Shown: one piece after another, positions 40,819 through 44,334 of the stretch
Layout of the letters: each line of letters opens with the position of its first letter
Numbering within the stretch: position 1 is the stretch's first letter
The notes under the pieces: model-generated
Seen by the model: only the letters and a program-made list of their open reading frames with translations
Told to the model about the DNA's origin: nothing
Databases searched by the model: none
Translations under genes and position numbers: made by a program
Origin: Phycisphaeraceae bacterium
GTDB taxonomy: Bacteria; Planctomycetota; Phycisphaerae; Phycisphaerales; UBA1924
Direction: 5' to 3'
Assembly: GCA_007693965.1 (NCBI GenBank)
Contig: RECQ01000032.1
Coordinates: 1-64,000 of the forward strand
DNA: 64,000 bases

Positions 40819-41103
40819 ATGAGCAGATCGCTGAAAAAAGGCCCATATGTTGATGAGAAGATCTTCCGCAAGGTGGAGAAGCTCAACCAGCAGAACAAGC
40901 GCGAACCCATCAAGACTTGGGCGCGTCGCTGCACCATCGTTCCCGAATTCGTCGGGCACACTTTCAAGGTGCACAACGGCCGCGTTTTCTTTGATGTGTT
41001 CATCACGGAAGACATGGTGGGCCACAAGCTCGGCGAGTTCAGCCACACGCGCACGTTCCGCGGGCACACGAACAAGAAGGAGGGCGTGCGGTCGGGACGC
41101 TGA
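40819..41103 (+). CDS. rpsS: Small ribosomal subunit protein S19 (uS19)
   Basis: 94 aa. S19 in the 30S head pairs with S13. [20 protein letters not shown] fixes ATG 40819, preceded by AGGAACAGG. Further segments are [19 protein letters not shown] and [16 protein letters not shown]. It lies 62 bp after rplB and 39 bp before rplV. Confidence 0.98.
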
Positions 41104-41142
41104 TCAGCGTCACGGGCCCCGCCAGAAGGCAGGATTACTGCA

Positions 41143-41688
41143 GTGCAGATCAACAGCGACAAAATGAAGAAACTGGTCAAGCAGGCCGGTCTCACCGAGG
41201 AGCAGCTTGCCCAGGCGATCACCCGTCCGGGCATGGGCGAGCGCGAATCCCTCGCGGCCATCCGCAACTGGCTCCAGTGGCGAGGCCACCCGCGCCCCAA
41301 GGTCCAGGACATCAACGCCCTGGCCGAGGCGCTGGGCTGCGAGCCCAAGGATTTCGCTCGCTTCGTGAGCATCTCGCGCTTCCAGCGCTCCAGCCCGCGC
41401 AAGGCCCAGCTCATCGCCGACCTCATCCGCGGCCGCAGCGTCGACGAGGCCATCACGATGCTCAGCTACAACAAGCGCCGGGCCGCAACCCAGGTGATGA
41501 AGACGCTCAAAACCGCCATCGCCGACGCCGAGCTGGCCGACGCGGATGTCGGGGCCCTCATCGTCGCCGAGTCGCGCATCGACAAGGGCGTGATCATCAA
41601 GAGATTCCAGCCCAAGGACCGCGGCCGGGCCCACCCGATCCAGAAGCGCACCAGCCACATCATCGTCGGCGTCGAGGAGGCTGCCTGA
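41143..41688 (+). CDS. rplV: Large ribosomal subunit protein L22 (uL22) with N-terminal helix-turn-helix-like domain
   Basis: 181 aa against about 110 for ordinary L22. The canonical L22 begins near residue 76: FQRSSPRKAQLIADLIRGRS, DEAITMLSYNKRRAATQVMK, HPIQKRTSHIIVGVEE. Residues about 8-74 read like a Cro/C1-type (XRE) helix-turn-helix: LTEEQLAQAI, ESLAAIRNWLQWRG, RPKVQDINALAEALGCEPKD. GTG 41143 has AGGA upstream. An in-frame GTG at 41365 (Val75) would give an ordinary-length L22 but has only AAGGA at poor spacing. The open frame across both parts favours a fusion. The stop overlaps rpsC by one base. Confidence 0.9.
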   Translation: MQINSDKMKKLVKQAGLTEEQLAQAITRPGMGERESLAAIRNWLQWRGHPRPKVQDINALAEALGCEPKDFARFVSISRFQRSSPRKAQLIADLIRGRSVDEAITMLSYNKRRAATQVMKTLKTAIADAELADADVGALIVAESRIDKGVIIKRFQPKDRGRAHPIQKRTSHIIVGVEEAA

Positions 41689-42395
41689 TGGGACAGAAAA
41701 CGCATCCATTCGGATTCCGCGTCGGCATCACCGAGGCGCACAAGAGTCGCTGGTACGCCCCCAAGGCGCTGTACGGCGAGCTGCTGGTCGAGGACTTTCG
41801 CATCCGCGAGTTCGTCGACAAGCGGATGAACCGCACCCCGCCCTTCGCGGCGGTGAGCGACATCCACATCGAGCGCACCCGCGAGGAGCTGAAGGTCATC
41901 ATCAAGACGGCCCGTCCCGGCCTGGTGATCGGCCCCAAGGGCGCCGAGGTCGACAAGCTGACCGAGGAGCTGCAGTACCTGACCGGCCGCAAGGTCTCGA
42001 TCGGAATTCTCGAGATCAAGAACCCGGACACGAACGCGCAGCTCATCGCCGAGGGCATCTCCGAGCAGCTCAAGAAGCGGGCGAGCTTCCGGCGCGTGGT
42101 CAAGCAGCGGGCCGAGGCCGCGATGCAGAACGGCGCCAAGGGCGTGCGAATCCTGCTGGGCGGGCGTCTGGGCGGCGCCGAGATGAGCCGCACACTGGAC
42201 ACGCGCATGGGCTCTCTGCCCCTGTCGACGCTCCAGGCCAACATTGATTACGGCTTCGCCGAGTCGTTCACGACCTACGGGGCGATCGGCGTGAAGGTGT
42301 GGGTGTGCCGCGGGATGTACACCGAAGAGCAGAGCGAGGAAGAAGGCCAGAGCCGTGCCGCGGGCGCCCGTCCGCGAGCCCGGGGCCGCCGTTGA
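41688..42395 (+). CDS. rpsC: Small ribosomal subunit protein S3 (uS3)
   Basis: 235 aa. S3 forms part of the mRNA entry channel. GQKTHPFGFRVGITEAHKSR at the start, the KH domain with KVIIKTARPGLVIGPKGAEV, then QLKKRASFRRVVKQRAEAAM, GRLGGAEMSRT and GAIGVKVWVCRGM. A basic, low-complexity C-terminus (RAAGARPRARGRR) follows. ATG 41688 overlaps the rplV stop (TGATG) with GAGGAGG upstream. Confidence 0.98.
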   Translation: MGQKTHPFGFRVGITEAHKSRWYAPKALYGELLVEDFRIREFVDKRMNRTPPFAAVSDIHIERTREELKVIIKTARPGLVIGPKGAEVDKLTEELQYLTGRKVSIGILEIKNPDTNAQLIAEGISEQLKKRASFRRVVKQRAEAAMQNGAKGVRILLGGRLGGAEMSRTLDTRMGSLPLSTLQANIDYGFAESFTTYGAIGVKVWVCRGMYTEEQSEEEGQSRAAGARPRARGRR

Positions 42396-43824: not shown

Positions 43825-44334
43825 ATGCCCAGGCACGTGAGAAAGGGAGACACGGTCGTCGTCACCGCAGGCGACAACAAGGGCCGCACCGGCGTGATCA
43901 GCCGCGTCATTCCCGATGAGGACCGCGTGATCGTGCAGGGGGTCAACCTCCGCACCCGTCACATGCGCCCCACCCAGGCGAATCCCCGGGGCGGCGTCAT
44001 CACCAAGGAAGCGCCGCTGCACATCAGCAACGTGAGCCCGGTCATCGACGGCCGCGCCAGCCGCGTACGCTTTGAGACCAAGGCGGACGGCAGCAAGGTC
44101 CGCGTCGCAGCGACCACCGGCAAGGAGCTGGGCGTCGTCCGCGGCGCCGGCGCCGGCAAGCCCTCCTCGGGCGCGCCCGCCGCCAAGCCTACATCGCCCT
44201 CGAAGAAGAAGACCAAGAAGAAAGCCGCCTCCACCAAGAAGAAGACGGCCAAGAAACCCGCCGCCAAGAAGTCAGGCGCCGGGAAGAAGACCGCGAAGAA
44301 GAAGACCTCCAAGAAGACCACGAAGAAGAAGTGA
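43825..44334 (+). CDS. rplX: Large ribosomal subunit protein L24 (uL24) with lysine-rich tail
   Basis: 169 aa against about 105 for most L24. The KOW core (residues 1-100) is standard: VRKGDTVVVTAGDNKGRTGV, VIVQGVNLRTRHMRPTQANP, GGVITKEAPLHISNV. From about residue 107 the protein becomes a Gly/Ala/Ser linker and then a Lys tail (SKKKTKKKAASTKKK, AGKKTAKKKTSKK) in which about half of the residues are Lys, like histone H1 or chlamydial Hc1 tails. GGAGGTG lies 8 nt before ATG 43825. Confidence 0.96.
   Translation: MPRHVRKGDTVVVTAGDNKGRTGVISRVIPDEDRVIVQGVNLRTRHMRPTQANPRGGVITKEAPLHISNVSPVIDGRASRVRFETKADGSKVRVAATTGKELGVVRGAGAGKPSSGAPAAKPTSPSKKKTKKKAASTKKKTAKKPAAKKSGAGKKTAKKKTSKKTTKKK

Follow-up and report, generated by a model that had tools for sequence, protein, structure and literature searches.

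The ribosomal protein uL22 (L22) of this Phycisphaeraceae bacterium carries at its N-terminus a domain that resembles the XRE (Cro/C1) helix-turn-helix, and our analysis confirmed the fusion as a real observation and not an artefact. uL22 belongs to the core ribosomal proteins and contributes to the narrow stretch of the tunnel through which the nascent chain passes. The domain is family-wide in nine families of the class. A known fold and a known protein are thus joined in a combination of which we found no earlier report in the open-licence PMC literature on Planctomycetes ribosomal proteins, uL22 N-termini and HTH fusions.

The rplV gene and its setting

The gene was analysed in a window of 64,000 nucleotides (the whole stretch of DNA under study), and its features are listed in Table 1. 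A first-pass annotation had read rplV as a frame of 181 codons whose C-terminal part is an ordinary L22. The frame is indeed open from its GTG to the stop codon, and the product matched Pfam Ribosomal_L22 (PF00237) over residues 78-177 with 107.1 bits against a cut-off of 28, as well as TIGR01044 with 98.4 bits against a curated cut-off of 73.65, which identifies it as a bacterial uL22. It is the only L22 detected in the 3.48-Mb genome, and its gene occupies the usual place in the S10 cluster, in the order rpsS-rplV-rpsC. Elsewhere in the window, the uL24 gene (43825-44334, + strand) encodes 169 residues, of which about 60 at the C-terminus form a histone-like tail with much Lys, Ala, Thr and Ser; a tandem-repeat finder flagged pieces of 44203-44331 in this gene.

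Table 1. Positions in the window of rplV, its parts and its neighbours.
Feature	Position	Strand	Evidence or remark
rpsS (S19), upstream neighbour of rplV	40819..41103	+	Gap to rplV of 39 bases
AGGA, Shine-Dalgarno-like	41131..41134	+	8 bases 5' of the rplV GTG
rplV frame	41143-41688	+	Open frame, GTG start, 181 aa
N-terminal XRE (Cro/C1)-fold domain of L22, residues 1-74	41143..41364	+	Pfam matches, model, solved-structure matches
Helix 3 (recognition-helix equivalent), residues 33-44	41239..41274	+	DSSP on models, column counts
Basic loop between helices 3 and 4, residues 45-53	41275..41301	+	Column counts
uL22 core, residues 75-181 (Pfam 78-177)	41365..41685	+	PF00237 E 6e-31; nearest solved chains are bacterial L22
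rplV stop codon	41686..41688	+	Overlaps the rpsC ATG at 41688
rpsC (S3), downstream neighbour of rplV	41688..42395	+	

Family matches and predicted fold of the N-terminal domain

When the first 80 residues of L22 were compared alone with Pfam, HTH_3 (E 1e-4), HTH_26 (3e-4) and HTH_31 (9e-4) were matched, all below their cut-offs. The whole protein scored 19.9 bits against HTH_3, for which the curated cut-off is 23, and the isolated 74-residue domain was printed at 23 bits, i.e., at the line. Because the XRE-family Pfam cut-off was not passed, we class the domain by its XRE fold and do not place it under HTH_3. Among 39 domain sequences, including that of the window, scanned singly at E up to 1, HTH_31 was matched by 28, HTH_3 by 22 and HTH_26 by 17, and the strongest HTH_31 match had an E-value of 2.6e-8.

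AlphaFold2, run on the full chain with a 39-row alignment, gave a model with a mean pLDDT of 93.4 and a pTM of 0.84. The domain modelled alone (pLDDT 94.8) showed the XRE helix order with high confidence. The predicted helices span residues 5-15, 19-26, 33-44 and 54-64 (DSSP on the AlphaFold2 models). In the model, a strand of residues 72-81 crosses the junction between the domain and L22 without a linker. Since this strand continues into L22, the model suggests a firm connection between the two and not a flexible tether.

A Foldseek search of the domain model against solved structures returned modest E-values (best 0.012, none below 0.001). The top Z-scores in VIA-align were those of C.Csp231I (9.8), BswR (9.1), P22 c2 (9.0), SinR (8.9) and 434 Cro (8.4), along with the XRE-like parts of the enzymes HEPD (9.6, 31% identity) and HppE (8.9). 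The XRE-like part of cyanase (7.9) and chains of two collided-ribosome entries (7o81, 7.8; 9rpv, 7.7) scored below about 8, a range in which a match may reflect merely a common arrangement; we take these ribosomal chains to be EDF1, which the entry titles do not name. Most of the top solved-structure matches are XRE folds, which places the model in the Cro/C1-type fold. Sequence, conservation and predicted fold therefore agree with the resemblance to an XRE helix-turn-helix that the first-pass annotation had noticed in residues 1 to about 75, and the structure prediction that it had suggested returned the expected helix order with Z up to 9.8. In a sequence search of the PDB with the domain profile, the best match was TniQ at about 3e-4, which weakened to 0.006 with more sequences; the matches after it were weak, and we do not regard any of this as kinship.

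Comparison with known systems

The domain shares its predicted fold, with the helix order kept over the whole domain, with XRE domains such as C.Csp231I, P22 c2, 434 Cro and SinR (Z 8.4-9.8). In line with the XRE consensus, it also has LA in helix 2, a Trp that closes helix 3, Gly and Pro within the loop and LA.AL in helix 4. Unlike these domains, it scores below the curated Pfam cut-offs, has a longer turn between helices 2 and 3 and variable base-reading positions, lacks a dimer part and is fused to a ribosomal protein.

Several fused or ribosome-bound systems are partly similar. With the enzymes HEPD/PhpD, HppE, MPnS and cyanase, L22 shares an XRE fold joined to an unrelated domain, and HEPD is among the closest folds; these proteins are catalytic, however, whereas L22 is a structural protein that binds rRNA. 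The XRE part of these enzymes is not known to bind DNA. EDF1/Mbf1 is likewise an XRE fold on the ribosome, with Z of 7.7-7.8 to the presumed EDF1 chains. Its helix-turn-helix sits between helices h16 and h33 of 18S rRNA (PMC7486125). EDF1/Mbf1 is, however, a separate small-subunit factor of eukaryotes and archaea, whereas the L22 domain is a covalent part of a bacterial large-subunit core protein. MBF1 has an N-terminal domain (eukaryotes) or a zinc ribbon (archaea) before its HTH, according to the same source (PMC7486125), whereas nothing precedes the L22 domain, which begins at the start codon and is not a member of MBF1/EDF1. Extra residues are also found in chloroplast uL22c: the spinach protein is extended at both ends, mostly on the solvent side (PMC5071890). 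Such additions are described as consisting for the most part of extended chain, whereas the one studied here is a folded domain (predicted) of a known DNA-binding fold. Finally, NCBIfam PRK12279, named 'L22/unknown domain fusion protein', likewise describes a fusion on L22 and matches our L22 part. The match covers only residues 79-175 (positions 8-106 of 311) with 53.8 bits against a cut-off of 526, and the added part there must be C-terminal, so the protein does not belong to PRK12279.

Distribution of the domain

A domain-only profile (A4) found the domain in 88 of 298 genomes of the class. These belong to nine families, in which 88 of 90 genomes carry it; it is absent from all 208 genomes of other families, including f2, f3 and f4, which belong to the same order as the window. 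By family (our labels), carriers numbered 27/27 in f1, 2/2 in f5 (one genus), 6/6 in f6, 4/4 in f7, 14/16 in f8, 24/24 in f114, 9/9 in f115, 1/1 in f117 and 1/1 in f118, and the two f8 genomes without the domain (G461, G557) also gave no L22 match. The front domain on which the first-pass reading depended is thus either present throughout a family or missing from it. In every one of the 88 carriers the domain is fused to L22: for 85, its main place equals the listed L22 place when the two are compared by eye, and the remaining three (G561, G586, G607) were read individually. In a phylum sample of 392 genomes, the domain occurred in 22, all of them in f1, f5, f6, f7 and f8. The best 80 of 492 matches among named relatives came from metagenome-assembled genomes, most of which are filed under Phycisphaerales, Phycisphaeraceae, Phycisphaerae or Planctomycetota; a few bear unexpected titles, for instance Leptolyngbya.

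Two further matches were set aside as unrelated, one at 4e-6 in the phylum sample (G178) inside a helicase-like frame of 912 aa and a weak one at 3e-4 in the class sample (G580) inside a frame of 1270 aa. No stand-alone or split gene for the domain was found in the short-L22 families with the A4 profile among the 298 class and 392 phylum genomes, a search that a very weak relative could escape (at most 14-19 candidates were scored per genome in the first look). A split-gene reading was rejected at the short-L22 loci L018, L023, L216, L217 and L219, where L22 closely follows or overlaps S19 and leaves no room for 74 codons.

Translation start and selection

The first-pass annotation had added the caveat that the GTG at 41365 (codon 75) could start a normal-length L22, with the front being an in-frame leader. 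In a broader form, L22 of ordinary size would arise by cleavage or from an internal start, so that the domain is removed or bypassed, and what lies before it would be a leader or a small protein of its own; we judge this very improbable. The GTG at codon 75 of the window does have AAGGA 13 bases before it. Of 81 sequences (the window and 80 relatives), 44-50 also have Shine-Dalgarno-like 4-mers ahead of codons 72, 74 and 75, which we put down to Lys-Asp codons. However, codon 75 is ATG, GTG or TTG in only 10 of the 81 sequences, and 23 contain none of these anywhere in codons 65-82. The start at codon 1, by contrast, holds the same position in 80/80 named relatives (60 GTG, 20 ATG; for rows L148 and L149 it was set manually a few codons before the BLAST match), and 61/81 sequences have a 4-mer or longer of AGGAGG 5-18 bases 5' of it, compared with 7-19 of 81 at control codons 30-70. 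This comparison of sequences largely removes the leader possibility. The junction, modelled as a strand with no linker, also argues against removal or bypass, as does the selection on the domain residues described below.

In the 10 closest pairs (full-gene dN < 0.07, six of them among four near relatives), dN/dS was 0.09-0.38 for the domain and 0-0.15 for the L22 core. These values indicate that the domain is under purifying selection in close pairs, looser than that on the core. The other 30 pairs of the 40 printed (823 pairs were kept) gave 0.36-1.63 for the domain and 0.28-1.02 for the core. Because core values near 1 imply that dS is underestimated there, through codon bias and saturation, we took these wider pairs as saturated. 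The domain evolves several-fold faster than the L22 core.

A conserved basic face and variable base-reading positions

Column counts over 97 sequences revealed Trp43 in 97 and Asn42 in 95, both at the end of helix 3, Pro50 of the basic loop in 96 and Ala61 in 89. In XRE domains the Trp, Ala and Pro serve the fold, and Asn42 presumably corresponds to Gln33 of the 434 repressor, a DNA-contact residue (aligned by eye). Positions 37 and 38, which we take to be the equivalents of the base-reading Gln28 and Gln29 of the 434 repressor (mapped by eye), vary widely or are Ser, Arg or Lys in the same sequences. XRE proteins usually have Gln at the position equivalent to 19, where Gln is not among the commonest residues in L22. 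The turn between helices 2 and 3 comprises residues 27-32 in the models and is longer than the standard XRE turn.

Residues 27-53 contribute +3.4 to the mean net charge of the domain (+4.4), and helix 1 has +2.1. Nine chosen face positions, partly picked after viewing the columns, carry +3.4, compared with 0.65 (sd 1.04) for random variable positions, and 33 of 10,000 draws were as high. Families differ in how basic the domain is on average, from +5.5 in f5 and +5.2 in f1 down to +1.8 in f114, with f7, f8 and f114 under +3. The loop between helices 3 and 4 mostly reads GRDHPRCK in f1 and KGLxKPxP in the other order that carries the domain.

These features bear on the possibility that free L22 is an autogenous regulator. 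When in excess over rRNA, its XRE domain would bind S10-operon DNA or mRNA and shut the operon down, and it would be silent in the ribosome. Ribosomal proteins often regulate their own operons, and both the predicted Cro/C1 repressor fold and the retention of the basic helix-3/loop face would suit such a role. However, the wide variation at positions 37 and 38 argues against one shared operator, and the rarity of Gln at position 19, the long helix-2/3 turn and the lack of a dimerisation part after the domain also speak against it. We therefore regard an autogenous regulator as unlikely. Gene regulation by the domain in general is possible but, beyond the fold, unsupported. A basic face of the backbone-contacting type together with unfixed base-reading positions would better suit a constant partner, such as rRNA, than one shared operator. 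The first-pass annotation had offered two readings, a new rRNA-binding extension or a link between ribosome assembly and gene regulation. The stable one-copy fusion, the variable base-reading positions and the kept basic face suggest that the former fits the evidence better.

Position on the ribosome and search for partners

The N-terminal strand bearing the domain belongs to the globular part of uL22. From published contacts of uL22, we infer that the domain should be found at the outer surface of the 50S subunit near bL32, bL17 and the rim of the tunnel exit. One structure used for this, entry 4v8i, is presumably that of Thermus. uL22 contacts both bL32 (Arg15, Arg37; entry 4v8i) and bL17 (PMC4881015).

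Such a position raises the alternative that the domain is mainly a platform for docking proteins at the tunnel exit, which would recruit or position factors at uL22 such as peptide deformylase (PDF), methionine aminopeptidase (MAP), chaperones or targeting factors. PDF and MAP bind at uL22 according to a review (PMC9099147), and it is to the N-terminal strand of this globular domain that the extension is attached. The helix-3/4 loop is also conserved in its own way in each carrier order. However, the kept face is basic and not hydrophobic, the C-terminal helix of PDF does not obviously differ by eye between long- and short-L22 taxa in the sequences compared, and no co-occurring partner came to light in the limited comparisons made. 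A docking platform thus seems to us rather unlikely, if less so than an autogenous regulator.

Among 25 genomes, bL32 and bL17 were found in all and PDF in 24, the genome in which PDF was not found being a short-L22 one (G077). bL17 match lengths and the sequences of bL32 and PDF showed no obvious change tracking the domain in these 25 genomes. In three f1 relatives (G270, G612, G095; L245, L246, L247), bL32 has lost two of the four zinc-ribbon Cys residues (CPLSGMP...C..SGY, CPVTSMP...C..SGY) and has a common tail with KLGIGV; the bL32 of the window's genome keeps all four. In bL17 (L273-L297), the match spans 327-453 bases for nearly the same 97 model positions, which indicates a variable internal insert; it is long in the window's genome (447) and G095 (450) and short in G270 (360).

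No change in 23S rRNA length tracked the domain among nine long-L22 and eight short-L22 genomes, i.e., no run of at least two alignment columns was present or absent with it. Six 23S positions track the domain by base; six were reached in 9 of 500 label shuffles in which relatedness was not kept, and the positions do not point to a site. Two of them resemble a base pair that closes a single hairpin loop. Large 23S inserts occur in G127 (L175; 229 and 58 bases), G372 (L185; 44 and 308) and G448 (L187; 301 and 156) and are perhaps intervening sequences or introns.

Evolutionary history

In a tree of L2, S19, S3 and L16 (81 rows, after six near-copies were left out of 87), the carriers are one clade of the other order (27 rows, SH-aLRT 99) plus f5 and f1 of the window's order, and the short-L22 family f4 stands beside f5 and f1. 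The clade of the other order is likely to contain cultured strains. The fewest gains and losses of the domain on this tree are three, of which well-supported branches force two. A tree of the L22 core, from which L023 was left out because its extraction was faulty, rejected neither all carriers as one clade (p-AU 0.47) nor the window's order as one clade (p 0.81). In a tree of the domain alone (51 rows and 76 columns, few columns for the rows), f1 is one clade (99) and the two f5 rows lie among rows of the other order (86), from which the f5 domain may therefore have come.

In carriers of the other order (L013-L017, L021, L024, L028, L048-L065, L067, L068), the hairpin of L22 contains an insert of three residues (AGxRxGTK or GGxRxxTR), in 27 of 27 rows compared. 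Their N-terminal strand has the motif AP (RYAPMSPRK, for example), whereas ARIS or ARIA stands there in 29/29 usable short rows (RFARISPRK, for example). The hairpin insert and the AP motif might affect the tunnel. The insert is absent from f1 and f5, as from the rest of the window's order, which speaks against the whole rplV gene having passed between the orders, although a single carrier clade is not rejected by the core tree. An ancestor would have joined an XRE-fold domain in frame to the N-terminus of L22, and the domain is old, with either repeated loss or movement between lineages since then.

Proposed role and significance

On balance, we think that the XRE domain is probably a built-in ribosomal extension of uL22 that contacts rRNA and/or neighbouring proteins. 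L22 would be made at full length from the GTG at codon 1 in the ribosomal operon, which would give one copy of the domain per large subunit. As a fixed extension beside bL32 and bL17, the domain would use its basic helix-3/loop face, the side that contacts the phosphate backbone in DNA-binding relatives, to hold on to a 23S rRNA helix at the surface and/or to a protein next to it, and it may help assembly or stabilise the exit-tunnel rim. uL22 could even have two functions: its XRE domain would be part of the subunit surface on the ribosome, whereas in free L22, or where ribosomes are stalled or unfinished, it would bind DNA, mRNA or another ribosome nearby. We consider this about as unlikely as the autogenous regulator; if it were true, a core tunnel protein would report the state of the ribosome directly to gene expression, with no separate regulator.

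If the domain is indeed a built-in extension, a fold for which 'transcription factor' is the usual annotation can form part of the ribosome itself, which calls for caution in annotation. Whole families in which a folded, repressor-type domain is fixed to uL22, alongside sister families that lack it, offer a natural experiment in how new parts are added to ribosomes.
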